Below the pieces are notes generated by a model. The model was not told where the DNA came from, searched no databases, and was given only the letters and a program-made list of their open reading frames with translations. 16,211 nt of DNA from Clostridia bacterium (GTDB taxonomy: Bacteria > Bacillota > Clostridia > Oscillospirales > CAG-272): NCBI GenBank assembly GCA_017411935.1, contig JAFQPC010000125.1:1-16211 (forward strand), in the 5' to 3' direction. The position numbers and the translations under genes were made by a program. Shown piece by piece: positions 564 through 8,007 of the stretch. Numbering within the stretch: the stretch's first letter is position 1; each line of letters opens with the position of its first letter.

Positions 564-2495
564 TTAGCCGACAATGATAATATCTCCGAAGCCGGAAGTA
601 CACTCATAAGTTACGGTGTGCGTCGTTCCGTCGGTGAGGGTATAGGTCACCAGAATCGTCGTTCCATCGTAGGCTTTCAGCTTTTGTGCATTCAGCGCGC
701 CTGCGTGTGCGCCTTCGGTGATCATAACGGTGTCGGTCACATCGGTCTCATCCATCATCACTTTGATCGTGAGCGTACCTGCGACGCTTCCCGCGGCGGC
801 ACGGAAGGTGAGATCTTCGGTGAGCTTGTCGGAGTTAATGGTTTTTGTCTCTCCGACGGTTGCCGTCGTTTGCTTTTTGGGACTTCCCGAGGTGTCGCCC
901 TGAACGATCGCAACGCTATTGCCGTGGAGTGCGCGGTACATATTGTACGCGGCATCGGCACCGATCAGGGTATAGCCGAACTTTCCGTAGTGGCAGTAGG
1001 CAATAGAACCGTAAAGATCCTTCATTGTGGTCGTCAACTTTCCGTCGGCAACGGTGGCAATGACGTTGCCGTCTTTATCCTTGATGGGATCGCCGCCGCT
1101 GTACTTATTCATTACAGAGAGATAGTTGCTGATGTCGATCGTATGCTCGGTATCTGCCGTTCCTACCCAATTCTCGGTCAGCGAGGTCGCGAGATAGAAG
1201 TTGTCGTGCTCGGCGATCATCTTGAGCTGTGCCGAAAGGGCAGTAGTATAGATAAGGTCGTTATGATTGGGGGCATCGGCATTCGGGAACTTATTGTCTT
1301 CCACGTCGCGTCTGACACGCAGGAATGCGGCGTATTCAAGACCTTGTGCCGCAAGGGTTTCCCACATCTTCATAAAGGATGCCTCGTAGGTGGCAGGATC
1401 CATTGCCGTGTGCCCCGGAATTGCGTTGTGGGCATTGGTCGAGCCGTCGATCTCGCCCTGCAACCAATACATTCCCTTGGAGCCGATCGAAAATTTTCTT
1501 GCGTTCGTGGCTTTGGTGTAATATGCCAAGCAGTTTTCCAAGAATTTTGCTGTGTGAAGTGTGGGCGTATTCACTGCATCGGGCGTTGCCCAGAATGAGA
1601 TTGACTGTCCGCTTTTGCTCGTCGAGCCTTCTAATGAAATGAGAATATTTTTCACGGGATCGCCTGCCGCGACGCTTTGCGCATAGAGCTCGGCAAGAAG
1701 GGTCGAGTGAAGTCCGCGCGTGGTATCGGTGAAAGCTTCAGGTTTTTTGTCGGTGTTATTCCAATGGTAAGCTGTGCCGAGGGGCGAGGAAATGTCGGTC
1801 ATTGCATTCACAAAAAGATTTGATCCGGAAACGGAATCCTCCCAATTGACCGAGTTGCTTTGACCCATTACGACGACGATGTTGATCTTCGCCTTTTCAA
1901 CGATGACGGTATAGCTCTTTTCCCCATCTGTCAAAGTAGCTTCACCAATTCCTTTTGCGTGGAAATACGTTGTGCTGTCAACGGTCTTGATTTCCAAAGC
2001 CGTTCCGTCCACCGTAACATCCTCTTTGGTTGCGGGAATGGAGAGAAGCGAGGGGAAGTAGTCGTCGTATTGCAGGGTCATTGCCTGACACTTGGAGCAG
2101 GTCTTCGGAGCTGTCAGCGTTGCGTTGACCCAAGCGTGGGGGATCTCGTCGATCGTTGCCTCACAGTTTTTTCGCTGACACGAAGCGGAAGCACCGCAAG
2201 CATCGGTATCCCAATCGTGGCCGAGTGCTTCGCATTGGGTCTCACCGCAAGTCTTGCAGGTTTTCGGCTCGGTACAAGTGGCATCGAGCCAATCGTGACC
2301 GTTGGGCTCTCCCTCGGTCTCATTGCAAACGCTACAGGTTTTGGGAGTTGTGCAAGTGGCATCGATCCATTCGTGCTCGCATGCGGGCACTTCGGAATCG
2401 TCGGGAGTAGCTTCGGCGGAAGGATCGTCTGCCCGACAGGCAACCGCGCCGAACAAAAATACGAAAATTAAGAGCAAAGATAAAAGTTTTTTCAT
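564..2495 (-). CDS. Secreted lipoprotein: Cys-rich repeats plus sialate-O-acetylesterase-like (SASA/SGNH) hydrolase
   Basis: The 643-residue protein starts MKKLLSLLLIFVFLFGAVAC, a lipoprotein signal with the lipid-bearing Cys at position 20. Residues 39-136 hold four Cys-rich repeats of the form HDWxDATCTEPKTCxxCGET, probably metal-binding or disulfide-knotted. Residues about 203-540 form an SGNH-type carbohydrate esterase domain: VVMGQSNS carries the likely nucleophile Ser213, WLQGEID (344-350) matches the family's WQGExD block, and CHYGKFGY around His502 is the likely catalytic His. This resembles SASA-family (sialate O-acetylesterase/CE6-like) enzymes that remove acetyl groups from glycans. 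The tail (about 545-643) is a beta-rich domain. Translation starts 24 nt after the preceding EEP gene's stop, behind a weak GAAAAGAGA site, so it is the last gene of the operon. Enzyme class is well supported; substrate unknown. Confidence 0.82.
   Translation of the reverse strand: MKKLLSLLLIFVFLFGAVACRADDPSAEATPDDSEVPACEHEWIDATCTTPKTCSVCNETEGEPNGHDWLDATCTEPKTCKTCGETQCEALGHDWDTDACGASASCQRKNCEATIDEIPHAWVNATLTAPKTCSKCQAMTLQYDDYFPSLLSIPATKEDVTVDGTALEIKTVDSTTYFHAKGIGEATLTDGEKSYTVIVEKAKINIVVVMGQSNSVNWEDSVSGSNLFVNAMTDISSPLGTAYHWNNTDKKPEAFTDTTRGLHSTLLAELYAQSVAAGDPVKNILISLEGSTSKSGQSISFWATPDAVNTPTLHTAKFLENCLAYYTKATNARKFSIGSKGMYWLQGEIDGSTNAHNAIPGHTAMDPATYEASFMKMWETLAAQGLEYAAFLRVRRDVEDNKFPNADAPNHNDLIYTTALSAQLKMIAEHDNFYLATSLTENWVGTADTEHTIDISNYLSVMNKYSGGDPIKDKDGNVIATVADGKLTTTMKDLYGSIAYCHYGKFGYTLIGADAAYNMYRALHGNSVAIVQGDTSGSPKKQTTATVGETKTINSDKLTEDLTFRAAAGSVAGTLTIKVMMDETDVTDTVMITEGAHAGALNAQKLKAYDGTTILVTYTLTDGTTHTVTYECTSGFGDIIIVG
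2088..2381 (-). repeat. Four tandem Cys-rich coding repeats in the esterase lipoprotein
   Basis: This encodes residues 39-136, about 25-28 residues per unit, with conserved H-x-W, DATCT, PKTC and CxxC positions. Units one and two are near-canonical. Unit three is diverged (DACGASASC, QRKNC) and unit four has lost the first Cys (NATLTAPKTC). The same repeat occurs in the EEP lipoprotein at 6353-6916. Confidence 0.85.
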
Positions 2496-2519: not shown

Positions 2520-4559
2520 TTATGATTTCAAAGAAATATCTGCAAAAGCAGGACGGTGTTCCGAGATCAGCGCGATATACTGATCGACGATGACACGGTA
2601 AGAAAGCACCGAAGCCAAGTCGGTCGGAACCAAAATGTGGTCGATCGAAGCGATCGTGTTTCGATTGGTCGTCAGATCAAACGAGGTAACAAGATCGGTA
2701 TTTGCGACCGTTTTCTGGAAAGTTATGGTCGTTTTTGCCGCGTTAAAATCGCCCGTGACAAAGATCGGAACGTTCGGGTAAAGTGCTTTGAGCTCGCGGA
2801 TCTTTGCATTGACAATATCGGCAGCGGCTTGCTGGTTCGCTTGATTTCTGCTGGTGGGATAGTGAAGATTGAGAATGATGTACTTTTGCGAGGGATCGTC
2901 GATCTTCGAGAAGATCGCCCACTGCCAACGGTGCATATGATCGTCAAAGTTTCCGGGATACATCGTATCCTTCGCTTCGATCTGCCATACCGTGTGGCGG
3001 TAGAGGATCGGGTTCCAATAGGTGTTTTCTGCCATTCCGTCGTAGGTGACAAAGGAATATTCGCTGCCTACCTTCTTCAAGAGCTCGGTGTGCATCAATG
3101 CCATGCCGTAGGTGTAGCCCTCTTGCATTTCCTGCAAGCCGACAAAGTCGGGAAGGTAGAGAAGAATGGCTTCCCCTTGGATATCGACGCGCTCTTGCCA
3201 AGAGATTCCGTATACGCCCTCGTACTGTTGCTTGCTGTACGAGTCTCCTGCGCAGATGATGTTCGAGGTCATCACGCGAACATCGGTATCTTCGGGTTTC
3301 TCAATGGCGTAGGAGCTGTAATCGGGGGTTTTCTTCAGATCAATGGAAGTAGCAGTGTCGTTCAGATAGAGCTTGTGGAATTCAGCGGCGGCATTGTCGG
3401 CAACGAGGTAGTTATCGTAAGCAATATAAATGCGTCCGTCAATGCTTCGAATGATGATCTCCCCCTCGCCGAGCTCGGCATAAAGTGACTGGCTTCCTGC
3501 GCGATCCGTGTTACCGAAGACGATCTCGTATTCGGATTCGGCTTTGGCATCGGTGATATAGGACATCACGTAACCGGTGTTGTCTCCGATCTTCTCTAAG
3601 ATGTCTTTGAGCAGGAATTTTTCTGCCGCGGTCATATTTTTGGAAACAACGATTTTGTATTCGGAAAGATCTCTGCCGAGAATCGTGGGAGAGGTATTGA
3701 CATACGATTGATTGTTGTCCACAAAGAAGAGAACGGTGTCAGGCATCGAAACATTGATCTTTCCTTGTTCATTGGTGGTTGCAAAAAGAGAATAGTTGAG
3801 AGATGCAAATCGTTCAATGGCGGCAAGCGCGCTTTCCTCGGTATGACCCGTGACGTGGATCGACATACCGCGGTCTATGGAAAGCAATCCGCGATAGGTA
3901 AGGAACGAGGTGTCGGCTATGATCTTGTTGGGGGCTTTTCCCAGTATGATCTTTTTGCCGCTGACATCGTTTTGGTAAGCGCTTGTCTTATAGGTGAAGG
4001 TCACGCCGGTTTTATTCGTTAACGTGGTTGCCAGTTGACTTGCCGCTACGTCGTAGGCTTCGTCGGAGCTGACGATGGTGTATTGTGCAACACCGTTCTT
4101 GACTAAGGAAACCCAATAGCCGACTTCGTCTATTTCGGAATTGTCTACAAAGAAGATAACGTTGCTCGGGACGCGAAGTTGGGTATTTCCGTTCGAGTCG
4201 GTCAGTACATATGACTCAAAATCAATCGCTGCGAATTTTTCAATGGCATCAAAGACCAAATCAGATGAGTGTGCGGTCAGATGGATCGAAACATTCATAT
4301 CGAGACAAAGCAGACCGAGCGAAGAAAGGAGCGAGGGGTCGGGAAGAAGATTGTTCGGATTTTTTCCGAGGACGATCTTCTTTCCCGTGACGCTGTTTTG
4401 CTGTTCGCTCGTCTTGTAGCTGAAGCTGCTGCCGGTTTTTTGAGTTAAAGCAGCCGCTAATTCATGGGCGGCGGTATCGTATTCCGAGCTGCTGCTGACG
4501 ACGGTATACTGTGCCGTTCCGTCCGTGATAAGGTTTACGAAATAGACGGACTCAAGTTT
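2520..4559 (-). CDS. EEP-superfamily hydrolase, out-of-frame continuation of the upstream lipoprotein gene
   Basis: The frame is open from 4622 down to the TAA at 2520, yet it has no ATG, GTG or TTG upstream of the ATG at 4298. That ATG has no Shine-Dalgarno site and falls inside a conserved module. I therefore place the coding start at the A run, as a -1 continuation of the upstream gene; a start-codon-based call would be 2520-4298 (592 aa). Two module copies occur (4140-4538 and 3714-4112; hallmark QYTIVSS, GKKIxLGKxPN, IHxTGH), then a related third domain. The EEP domain follows from about residue 338 (numbered from the 4298 ATG). Its metal and catalytic residues are present: Asn346 (TSNI), Glu390 (LQE), His479, Asp517 and Asn519 (GDFN), Asp553-His554 (IDH), His581 (SEHRP). 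EEP enzymes are Mg-dependent nucleases or phosphodiesterases. Alone, this frame encodes no signal peptide. Confidence 0.75.
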   Translation of the reverse strand, partial: KLESVYFVNLITDGTAQYTVVSSSSEYDTAAHELAAALTQKTGSSFSYKTSEQQNSVTGKKIVLGKNPNNLLPDPSLLSSLGLLCLDMNVSIHLTAHSSDLVFDAIEKFAAIDFESYVLTDSNGNTQLRVPSNVIFFVDNSEIDEVGYWVSLVKNGVAQYTIVSSDEAYDVAASQLATTLTNKTGVTFTYKTSAYQNDVSGKKIILGKAPNKIIADTSFLTYRGLLSIDRGMSIHVTGHTEESALAAIERFASLNYSLFATTNEQGKINVSMPDTVLFFVDNNQSYVNTSPTILGRDLSEYKIVVSKNMTAAEKFLLKDILEKIGDNTGYVMSYITDAKAESEYEIVFGNTDRAGSQSLYAELGEGEIIIRSIDGRIYIAYDNYLVADNAAAEFHKLYLNDTATSIDLKKTPDYSSYAIEKPEDTDVRVMTSNIICAGDSYSKQQYEGVYGISWQERVDIQGEAILLYLPDFVGLQEMQEGYTYGMALMHTELLKKVGSEYSFVTYDGMAENTYWNPILYRHTVWQIEAKDTMYPGNFDDHMHRWQWAIFSKIDDPSQKYIILNLHYPTSRNQANQQAAADIVNAKIRELKALYPNVPIFVTGDFNAAKTTITFQKTVANTDLVTSFDLTTNRNTIASIDHILVPTDLASVLSYRVIVDQYIALISEHRPAFADISLKS
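3714..4112 (-). repeat. Duplicated module, copy C
   Basis: This is the third of three related coding modules of about 133 residues (copy A 5777-6175, copy B 4140-4538). Shared landmarks are a start like V-x-L-V-x-x-G-x-A-Q-Y-T-I-V-S-S, then GKKIILGK, then SIHVTGHTEE, then an F-x-x-N end. The pattern recalls the small alpha/beta N-terminal domains placed before catalytic domains of clostridial glycan-acting enzymes; that comparison is inference. Confidence 0.75.
4140..4538 (-). repeat. Duplicated module, copy B, coded partly upstream of any start codon
   Basis: Translated in the frame of the downstream EEP gene, this stretch gives AQYTVVSSSSEYD, TGKKIVLGKNPN and SIHLTAHSSD, aligning with copies A and C. 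About the first two thirds lie upstream of the first in-frame ATG (4298). This is the main evidence that translation reaches this frame from the preceding gene. Confidence 0.8.
4521..4551 (-). promoter_or_regulatory. Possible stem-loop just downstream of the A9 run
   Basis: On the mRNA strand GTCCGT (4551-4546) can pair with ACGGAC (4526-4521), six perfect pairs with four G-C, closing a 19-nt loop that holds the zero-frame UAA stop. The stem begins five bases after the A run, a spacing usual for structures that stimulate -1 frameshifting. A second register (CCGTC with GACGG) is also possible. A six-pair stem can occur by chance, so this is only suggestive. Confidence 0.3.
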
Positions 4560-7036
4560 TTTTTTAGCGAAAGATCGGCAAAGATCGGACGGTGGTCCGA
4601 GGTCAATTCCATATAATCTCCGTTAATCTTACGGCAAGCGATAACATTTAAAAGGTCGGTGGAAACCATAATATGGTCGATCACGTTATCTTTTGTGGAG
4701 CTCGTTTCCGTACCCGTAAGATCTCCCAAGTCCTTGCAATCGTCGGTTTGAACGTATGCGCAGCGGACATCGGTATTGGCAATGGTTCTTTGATAGGTTT
4801 CGGTATCGAGTTCGGTATTGAAGTCACCCGTCAAAATGATCGGGATATCGGGATAGAGTTCTTTGAGTTCGAGAATTTTTGCATTGACAATGTCTGCCGC
4901 TGCCAGCTGACCGGGAAGATTACCGCTTCTCGTGGGGTTGTGGAGATTGAGAACGATGTATTTTTGTGTGGGATCGTCGATCTTCGAGAAGAGCGCCCAC
5001 TGCCAACGGTGCATTGCGTTGTCAAAGTCTCCGGGATAGAGAACGTCCTGCGCCTCGATCTGCCATACCGTCTTGCGGTAGAGGATCGGGTTCCAATATG
5101 CACCGGGATTATCTTTCATCTGATCGTAGACGACGAATGCGTATTCGCTCGAAACGTTGTTGAGAATTTCGGTGAACATATCGGCGGGAATACCATTGAC
5201 CGTACCGTTCTGGATTTCCTGCATTCCAACGAAGTCAGGCAGGTAGAGCATAATTTCTCCGGTGACGATGGCAATTCTTTCTTGCCACGAAATGCCGTAG
5301 GGTTTTTCGATATCCTTGATTCCGTTGGCATCCGCTGCGCAGACGATGTTGGAGGTCATCACGCGGATATCGGTATCCTCGGATTTTTCGACGCGCATAG
5401 AAGGATCTGCGGGGATTGTGACGTTCAGATCAACTTGATCGTTTGTGTTCGAGAGATAGAGCATATGAAGCGCAGTTCTCATCTGCTCGGCAATGCGATA
5501 GTTCGGGAACGGGATCGAAAGACATCCGTCTGCACTCTTGATGACGTAGTCGTTTTCAGCAAGAGCATCGGTGCTCGTGAAAACGATCTCGTTTACGCCG
5601 GTTGCTTTGTCTGCGGTTTTGGTCGAGAGATAAACACCACTGTAACGTCCGATCTCATCGATCAGTTTTATGATGCAGAAGTTTTCGGTAGCACTTATGT
5701 TCTTGGGAACGATAATGGTGTACTCCGAGAGGGGGGTGCCACAAAGGGAGGGATTCGGATTGATGTAATTTGTGGGGTTGGCAATGAAATCAAATACGCT
5801 CATCGGAACAGAGACAAGTTTCTTGCCATCGGATCCCGTGGAGATGTAAGGAGAAAAATCAATCGCGCCAAAGCGGTCGACTGCCGCAATCACCGTTTCT
5901 TCAAGATGTCCCGTAACATGGATCGACGAACCGGTGTAGTAGAAGAGCAGACCGAGATACGAAAGATCGGAGGGGTTCGGCAAGAGAACGTTCGGGTTCT
6001 TTCCGATTACGATCTTTTTGCCGGTCGCCGTATCTTGCTGAGTGCTGGATACATATTTAAACGTAACGCCAAGCTGTGTGCGCAGCTTTGTTGCAAGAAT
6101 GATAGCCAGATCGTCGTATTCAGGGCTGGAGCTCACAATGGTGAATTGTGATTTTCCGCCCTCAACGAGCTTTACCTTCATTCCGCTGGCGGTCGTATTT
6201 TCGGGATAGATCGGAGCGGGAGGTGTAGCGGGAAGCGAAAGCTCAGAGGGGAGCTCTACCGTTTCTTCTTTGCCGCAAACGGAGCAGCTTCTGGTCTTTT
6301 TCCAAACGTTGCCCTCGGTGGGAACGGTGGTAACGATCCAATCACCCGAGTGACCGAGTGCTTCACCCTCGGTTTCACCGCAGGTACCGCAGGTCTTGGG
6401 CTCGGTGCAGGTAGCATCTTTCCAATCGTGACCGAGCGCTTCACCCTCGGTTTCGCCGCACGTCGCACAAGTTTTGGGAGTCGTGCAGGTGGCGTCTGAC
6501 CAAGCGTGTCCGGGAATTTCTCCCTCGGTATGGTTACAATTGTCGCGTTGGCAGGTCGCGGGCTCGGTACAGGTGGCATTTCCAAGGTCGTGTCCGAGAG
6601 GATTGCCCTCGGTCGCTCCACAGGTGCCGCAGGTCTTAGGTTCGGTACAGGTAGCGTCTTTCCAATCGTGACCGAGTGCTTCGCCGCTCACTATGCCACA
6701 ACCCTCTCTTTGACAGGTTTTGGGCTCGGTGCAGGTAGCGTCGGCAAAGTCGTGACCGAGCTTGCTTCCCTCGGTCTTGCCACACATATTACAGGTTTTG
6801 GGTGCGATACAGGTGGCATCTGCCCAGTCGTGTGCAAGTGCGGTTCCCTCGGTCTCTTTGCAGAGACGGCAGGTTTTGGGAGTATCACAATCGGCAGCGA
6901 TCCACTCGTGTTCGCAAGTGGGGGCATTCGTCTCGTTCATATCAGACGGTGTGACGTTGACAGAAACTTCTTGCGTACACGCAACCGCCGTCAACAACAG
7001 CATAATAACCAATAGGAAGAATAAAAATTTTTTCAT
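4535..7036 (-). CDS. Secreted lipoprotein: Cys-rich repeats plus EEP-superfamily hydrolase domain
   Basis: The 833-residue protein begins MKKFLFFLLVIMLLLTAVAC, a lipoprotein signal with Cys20 as anchor. Residues 41-228 hold seven Cys-rich repeats, and a degenerate eighth (229-262) ends in CSVCGK. A roughly 133-residue module follows (288-420; QFTIVSS, GKKIVIGKNPN, SIHVTGH), then a related domain (421-550). The EEP domain spans about 556-822 with its expected residues: Asn563 (TSN), Glu607 (MQE), His699, Asp738 and Asn740 (GDFN), Asp787-His788 (IDH), Asp814-His815 (SDHRP). This predicts a metal-dependent phosphodiesterase, nuclease or phosphatase at the cell surface; the substrate is unknown. 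The start is set by AAAGGAGA at 7044-7051 and a good promoter upstream. After FADLSLKK an A9 run and a short non-conserved tail (NLSPSIS) end the frame, whereas the sister protein ends FADISLKS with no tail. Confidence 0.85.
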   Translation of the reverse strand: MKKFLFFLLVIMLLLTAVACTQEVSVNVTPSDMNETNAPTCEHEWIAADCDTPKTCRLCKETEGTALAHDWADATCIAPKTCNMCGKTEGSKLGHDFADATCTEPKTCQREGCGIVSGEALGHDWKDATCTEPKTCGTCGATEGNPLGHDLGNATCTEPATCQRDNCNHTEGEIPGHAWSDATCTTPKTCATCGETEGEALGHDWKDATCTEPKTCGTCGETEGEALGHSGDWIVTTVPTEGNVWKKTRSCSVCGKEETVELPSELSLPATPPAPIYPENTTASGMKVKLVEGGKSQFTIVSSSPEYDDLAIILATKLRTQLGVTFKYVSSTQQDTATGKKIVIGKNPNVLLPNPSDLSYLGLLFYYTGSSIHVTGHLEETVIAAVDRFGAIDFSPYISTGSDGKKLVSVPMSVFDFIANPTNYINPNPSLCGTPLSEYTIIVPKNISATENFCIIKLIDEIGRYSGVYLSTKTADKATGVNEIVFTSTDALAENDYVIKSADGCLSIPFPNYRIAEQMRTALHMLYLSNTNDQVDLNVTIPADPSMRVEKSEDTDIRVMTSNIVCAADANGIKDIEKPYGISWQERIAIVTGEIMLYLPDFVGMQEIQNGTVNGIPADMFTEILNNVSSEYAFVVYDQMKDNPGAYWNPILYRKTVWQIEAQDVLYPGDFDNAMHRWQWALFSKIDDPTQKYIVLNLHNPTRSGNLPGQLAAADIVNAKILELKELYPDIPIILTGDFNTELDTETYQRTIANTDVRCAYVQTDDCKDLGDLTGTETSSTKDNVIDHIMVSTDLLNVIACRKINGDYMELTSDHRPIFADLSLKKNLSPSIS
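4557..4565 (-). other. A9 homopolymer, candidate -1 frameshift or slippage site
   Basis: On the coding strand the sequence reads TCG CTA AAA AAA AAC TTG in the upstream gene's frame and then meets a stop eight codons later at 4535. Re-pairing one base back after AAA AAA gives AAA CTT GAG, which enters the downstream EEP frame. One extra A in the transcript, or in the DNA, has the same effect. The joined product would be about 1,505 residues (826 + 679). Confidence 0.65.
5777..6175 (-). repeat. Duplicated module, copy A, in the upstream EEP lipoprotein
   Basis: Residues 288-420 of the 833-residue lipoprotein, between the Cys-rich repeats and the linker domain. It carries SQFTIVSSSPEYDD, TGKKIVIGKNPN and SSIHVTGHLEE, colinear with copies B and C in the adjacent frame. 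Confidence 0.75.
6353..6916 (-). repeat. Seven tandem Cys-rich coding repeats in the EEP lipoprotein
   Basis: Units of about 26 residues (78 bp) with consensus HDWxDATCTEPKTCxxCGxTEGxxLG, covering residues 41-228. Units four and seven are nearly identical, including at DNA level (TCTTTCCAATCGTGACCGAG near 6418 and 6658), which suggests recent duplication or gene conversion. Units three and five have an altered second half (QREGC, QRDNC). The same repeat, with fewer units, begins the esterase lipoprotein. Confidence 0.9.
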
Positions 7037-7947: not shown

Positions 7948-8007
7948 ATAAGAAAGACGGAGCGATCCGTTGAAATAACTTTGATAAAATTATGGAGGTA
8001 TTTTACG

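Follow-up and report, generated by a model that had tools for sequence, protein, structure and literature searches.

Probable recoding at an A9 run between two EEP reading frames of a clostridial lipoprotein gene

Two adjacent reading frames, each encoding an EEP domain, meet with a -1 offset at a run of nine A's in the stretch of Clostridia bacterium DNA analysed here (16,211 nucleotides, hereafter the window). The break between the frames in the window is real, as is, in one relative, P0002, the fusion of the two halves, while the split is apparently common to at least two further lineages. Taken together, these comparisons make recoding at the A9 run likely, and the explanation to which we give rather more credit than to all others is a conserved recoding event that yields one-EEP and two-EEP lipoproteins from one gene, probably by transcriptional slippage.

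According to this proposal, decoding would mostly stay in the zero frame and end after a short tail, NLSPSIS; the resulting lipoprotein, of 833 aa, has a single EEP domain. In some fraction, one base of shift would be gained at the A9 run, and decoding would enter the second half. The lipoprotein made in this way would be about 1505 aa long and carry two EEP domains as well as three N-modules. The shift would most likely be due to RNA polymerase adding an A, or possibly to ribosomes slipping by -1 on A_AAA_AAA or A_AAA_AAC; transcriptional slippage is favoured, the ribosomal route being the main alternative.

The locus and its two reading frames

The window corresponds to contig C103 of a 1.30-Mb metagenome-assembled genome (MAG; 1,295,704 bases, 217 contigs, 67%-complete). 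A preliminary description of this DNA had placed the meeting point of the two EEP frames at an A9 run, with a -1 offset and a short zero-frame tail stopping at 4535, and both features were found again (Table 1). The final codons of the upstream ORF are CTA AAA AAA AAC TTG AGT CCG TCT ATT TCG TAA. Joining the two frames by -1 results in 826+1+678 = 1505 residues (arithmetic on the two frames), which reproduces the size of about 1,505 residues given in that description for the two-EEP lipoprotein. The third frame shows an immediate TGA at the junction; thus, the loss of one A was rejected as a source of the long form, and slippage in that direction gives another short form.

The earliest ATG, GTG or TTG in the -1 frame is the ATG at 4298. 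A codon scan of the 86 codons between the A9 run and this position returned none of these three, the only near-cognate starts being two ATC and one CTG, and no Shine-Dalgarno-like motif was seen by eye in the 25 nt preceding the ATG, unlike the gene start at 7036, which carries AAAGGAG. The absence of a usable start and of a ribosome site, previously claimed, is thereby corroborated, and the downstream -1 frame has no signal peptide. Beyond the earlier description, this frame holds two N-modules, the first of them containing the ATG at 4298. The gene at 564-2495 possibly belongs to the same operon as the EEP frames.

Table 1. Features of the EEP locus in the window (positions in nucleotides).
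Feature	Position	Strand	Remarks
Upstream ORF, 833 aa	4535..7036	-	Lipoprotein-type signal, Cys-His repeats, one N-module, M2 module, EEP domain
Perfect hairpin TCGGAC-CACC-GTCCGA	4585..4600	-	19 nt upstream of the A9 run
A9 run	4557..4565	-	Within CTA AAA AAA AAC; frame-change site
Zero-frame stop TAA	4535..4537	-	Closes the short product after DLSLKK and the tail NLSPSIS
Downstream -1 frame (P0001)	2520..4622	-	700 open codons plus stop
First downstream N-module	4128..4553	-	Portion ahead of any start codon: 4299-4553
Second downstream N-module	3708..4127	-	Module alignment
M2 module	3303..3707	-	Module alignment
Second EEP domain	2523..3302	-	PF03372, 26.1-26.5 bits (cut-off 24.5)
Next gene, lipoprotein with similar Cys-His repeats	564..2495	-	24 nt past the stop of the second EEP

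Fused, split and start-less relatives

Relatives were collected by two protein searches (25 and 38 matches at E 1e-3) and a search with profile A3 (27 matches at E 1e-60), each of which scored the best 7992-7998 candidates by shared words; relatives were compared as proteins. P0002 (1456 aa) is a single in-frame protein covering both halves, with a match of 70% to the upstream ORF and of 80% to the downstream frame. Its junction, SLKNKSNSLYLVDLVKDG, is equal in length to the -1 reading of the window, SLKKKLESVYFVNLITDG, and the two align free of gaps, although its residues KNKSNS cannot encode an A9 run.

Four other relatives (P0008, P0009, P0010 and P0011) are second halves devoid of a signal peptide, and their predicted starts differ, although those of P0010 and P0011 are just two codons apart. 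These four start-less clusters comprise 13 contigs (four, four, two and three, respectively), of which the representatives were read and which may share reads. P0010 (592 aa), located on a 16215-bp contig, is near-identical to the second half of the window and is called from the same ATG. The first halves P0006 and P0003 end in SLKKNLIPPIS and SLKKDLTTVTP, with a tail of the same length as that of the window, SLKKNLSPSIS (SLKK plus seven residues). Longest contigs are equal within the pairs P0006/P0008 (11071) and P0003/P0011 (11035), and from this equality alone we infer that the members of each pair lie side by side. Thus, both divergent pairs appear to be split at the same place as the window, although P0011 begins too late to reveal its junction and covers two of the 85 start-less positions. 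Codon logic indicates that in the P0006 and P0003 tails the -1 reading permits, at the corresponding position, the Y-x-V with which the N-module opens, whereas the +1 reading does not; support for -1 joining from this source is modest, because by our rough estimate one random tail in eight also permits Y-x-V. The first halves lacking a recognised partner (P0004, P0005 and P0007) stop at SVK, AFKN and SYKNS, within two residues of the last lysine of the domain, and P0007 is apparently on the same contig as P0006.

The idea put forward initially, that one protein runs across the two frames, is reinforced by the in-frame fusion in P0002 and by the two other lineages apparently split at the same place. 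It would have been weakened by relatives whose second gene had a normal start and signal peptide, and none of the three start-less relatives from other lineages (P0008, P0009 and P0011, P0009 having no recognised first half) shows them. P0012 (803 aa) is, in this respect, a point against the one-gene explanation. In this second-half relative, nested among the start-less and fused orthologues, a signal peptide and Cys-His repeats are joined to a single N-module, and the first N-module is missing; the arrangement suggests module shuffling between neighbouring genes and shows that a second half can acquire a signal peptide of its own.

It could also be argued that two separate proteins are made, the second being begun internally by termination-reinitiation and, having no signal peptide, remaining in the cytoplasm. 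The predicted start of P0008 would lie only a few codons past the stop of P0006 (as deduced from the protein alignment), which would suit such coupling. However, the window has ATC at the position of the P0008 start codon, within the 86 codons described above, the starts predicted in the relatives differ, and full-length members of the family are lipoproteins, so that this is the least probable of the explanations considered here. A simple lipobox pattern failed to match 13 of the 46 rows. Five of these are second halves (P0001 and P0008-P0011); of the other eight, several have a signal recognisable by eye or may have been truncated by a contig end.

When P0002 was searched in 30 genus genomes and P0008 in 196 family genomes (E 1e-60), both N-modules were matched, among the matches listed, only in the window's own genome. 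P0001 found no relatives in 61 pattern matches against genome contigs, and alignment A1 found one in 42, a yak-cecum MAG contig of 45348 bases, as long as contig C34 of G015, in which the EEP genes arranged in tandem each carry a signal peptide. No relatives appeared among viral contigs, either in 77 matches with alignment A1 or in 155 with A5.

Conservation of the start-less stretch and age of the split

Within the start-less stretch (P0001 residues 24-108), 56/85 positions are shared with P0002, 55/75 with P0008 and 43/54 with P0009 (66, 73 and 80% identity). Against the same three proteins, the rest of the first downstream N-module shows 58, 61 and 72% identity, the next N-module 78, 69 and 82%, and the second EEP domain 90, 76 and 85%, above the N-modules. 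The start-less stretch is, thus, coding-like and about as conserved as its neighbouring modules.

In the second-half tree (12 rows), P0008 and P0011 group together (97/97) outside the group formed by the window, P0002, P0009 and P0012 (99/98), and the fused P0002 is nested, pairing with P0009 (97/96). Since the fused protein is nested and P0008 and P0011 lie outside, this topology favours an old split over an ancestral fusion, although P0012 requires a further event. The first-half tree is poorly resolved, with two of seven inner branches starred. The arrangement would, on our reading, be old and may have been kept by selection.

These data bear on the possibility that the downstream half is a decaying paralogue truncated at its 5' end, or that the window contains an assembly indel. 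The source is an incomplete MAG, and tandem EEP genes of related genomes have signal peptides of their own (see below). Moreover, at 2561-2567 (minus strand) the window reads ISEH where P0010 reads SSDH, the sole two residue differences in 592; most relatives listed have SDH at that site, and the SEH of the window could hint at decay. Nevertheless, the 700 open codons and the conserved start-less stretch speak against this possibility, as does the apparent occurrence of such a split in lineages at a distance of 0.46-0.54 substitutions per site, and the second half on the 16215-bp contig is called from the same ATG. Taking into account the fusion in P0002 and the apparently shared split in two other lineages, a recent disabling mutation or an assembly indel is disfavoured, and we regard this explanation as unlikely.

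The A9 run and the mechanism of the shift

Runs of A's are acted upon by RNA polymerase slippage, ribosomal -1 slippage and replication slippage. Slippage calls for an A/T homopolymer of about 7-9 or more, and the junction carries nine A's. In the whole MAG there are seven distinct runs of at least nine A's (eight pattern matches, one run of ten being counted twice); among the genomes listed, others of the genus have counts of the same order, and a few have more. The two frames can switch only within about 85 nt, and the accidental occurrence of at least nine A's there has a probability of about 2e-4 (our own arithmetic, made post hoc). Given the peptide LKKN and local codon use, A9 is expected with p = 0.012. 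CTA accounts for two of 370 Leu codons in ten genes of the window, one of them lengthening the A9 run and the other being codon 8 of the same gene.

An A9 run alone was rejected as a marker of recoding, since the MAG has another one (2651-2659 of L064, G000:C126), positioned in frame within a MatE/polysaccharide flippase ORF. This ORF reaches the contig end, its Pfam match spans the run in frame, and there is no partner frame. Concerning the remaining five runs, two are just 5' of the first start codon of a long ORF, and three are in stretches without a 100-aa ORF or with only overlapping ORFs of 121-173 aa. The two A8 runs of the window both sit in open ORFs, which, together with the flippase match, also argues against an assembly indel at the junction. 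As a separate observation, contigs C39, C61 and C101 of G027 contain runs of about 30 A's, absent from the other genomes among those listed, which are possibly assembly artefacts.

Transcriptional slippage has precedents at runs of this length. Nine A's have been reported to slip in transcription (PMC5009743, PMC6211511), and in Clostridium thermocellum about 16% of the cDNAs from an A9 run slip in each direction, seven A's being sufficient, as in the case of IS1447 (PMC6211511, in part). Such reports weigh against the need for a ribosomal route, in which programmed -1 frameshifting would generate the long form. This route is a sub-case of the preferred explanation and overlaps with it in probability. 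The zero-frame CTA AAA AAA AAC contains two heptamers of the form X_XXY_YYZ, A_AAA_AAA and A_AAA_AAC, both listed among bacterial frameshift sites (PMC3711429, in part). In addition, the protein tail of P0006 permits A9, and that of P0003 (LKKD) allows no more than A7, a length short for classical slippage and enough for a ribosomal shift. On the other hand, inspection by eye of the 30 nt preceding the run showed no Shine-Dalgarno-like stimulator, and folds taking in its downstream side were no better than shuffles (z -0.14, 0.65 and 0.34), so that a downstream frameshift-stimulating hairpin is unsupported (z -0.14), although one proven A_AAA_AAC frameshift case is described without an established stimulator (PMC4066793, in part). 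The stretch 4557-4615 outperforms most of its shuffles in folding (z -1.79; 10 of 200 do as well), and the upstream hairpin within it (Table 1) may be incidental because it encodes the conserved SDHRP motif. All this considered, we hold the ribosomal route to be rather unlikely, though the strongest of the alternatives.

Phase variation, in which replication slippage in the A run toggles cells between the short and the long forms, turned out to be the weakest of the three mechanisms contemplated in the preliminary description. A homopolymer within a surface lipoprotein gene is what such switching would use. However, P0002 is not simply the ON allele, because KNKSNS cannot encode A9; no close fused protein appears among the matches listed, in which lengths up to about 1560-1620 were allowed; and the P0003 run is at most A7. 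Phase variation is accordingly a distinctly improbable explanation. The two alleles compared, those of the window and of the 16215-bp contig, give the same split call.

Returning to transcriptional slippage, the preferred mechanism, several known systems offer partial parallels. In the IS1447 transposase of C. thermocellum, A9 also joins two frames in a Firmicute, by slippage both ways, although IS1447 is a mobile element and the +1 direction gives its full protein, whereas here a lipoprotein with two enzyme domains would be obtained in the -1 direction (PMC6211511, in part). In Citrobacter rodentium tssM1, slippage of about 20% at A11 leads to two length variants; as in our case, the A run precedes a premature stop by a short distance, and one gene gives a short and a long envelope protein, but the long form of tssM1 completes one protein, whereas the long form here would gain an entire further catalytic unit (PMC4256274, in part). 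The alpha-L-fucosidase of Saccharolobus solfataricus likewise combines two frames by a -1 shift in a carbohydrate-acting enzyme (a guess in the present case); unlike the archaeal fucosidase, where the shift is needed for function, the short form here already holds a complete EEP domain (PMC8037382, in part). Much predicted bacterial programmed frameshifting lies in mobile genes (PMC3711429, section heading). In the titles and abstract openings retrieved on slippage, frameshifting, fucosidase and mannan, by queries that did not name the gene family, there was no report of this case.

Domains and possible function

EEP domains are characterised by the catalytic motifs QE, NLH, GDFN and SDH. All four are present in the upstream EEP, whereas the downstream one has QE, NLH and GDFN, with SEH in place of SDH. 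Both halves are above the curated PF03372 cut-off, the upstream EEP with 29.8 bits vs 24.5. In profile comparisons with solved chains, the first half matched nocturnin best (E 8e-6), followed by 3g6s, PDE12 and the mannosyl-6-phosphatase group, and the nearest chains to the second half were the mannosyl-6-phosphatase 4c1r and the putative EEP proteins 3mpr and 3g6s (E 3e-4 to 5e-4). These are distant sequence matches that share the EEP domain, and the chains of 4c1r, 3mpr and 3g6s (267-298 residues) are too short for N-modules plus EEP. The N-modules are weakly GH20b/GH67N-like, GH20 domain 2 being matched in three of four rows (best E 4e-4). For the gene at 564-2495, neither a Pfam family above cut-off nor a PDB match at E 0.1 was obtained; the gene contains a GQSN stretch, which we take to resemble that of carbohydrate esterases. 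A role of the EEP lipoprotein in glycan processing at the surface is, thus, only a guess, because the domain matches are distant and the GQSN reading has no Pfam or PDB support.

Most full-length family members in the related genomes examined combine a signal peptide with a single N-module, M2 and a single EEP, and in L040 and L044 there are tandem EEP genes, each with its own signal peptide. Six tandem single-domain EEP ORFs were also observed in each of two genomes (L037, G000:C152, 1517-6692; L046, G015:C30, 5805-11060), of about 283-338 aa and with no obvious signal peptide by eye.

Significance

We infer that the long form is made alongside the short one. A more far-reaching proposal, which we advance tentatively and with some doubt, is that, in uncultured gut Clostridia, a conserved slippage switch fixes the proportion of one-EEP and two-EEP forms of a surface glycan-processing lipoprotein, both forms being useful and P0002 being locked in the long one. 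If the preferred explanation is correct, automatic annotation hides this arrangement as two genes, the second of them without a usable start. It also serves as a warning that, in gut MAGs, a neighbouring gene without a start may be one half of a recoded protein. For the bacterium itself, such recoding would decide whether a surface lipoprotein carries a whole second enzyme.
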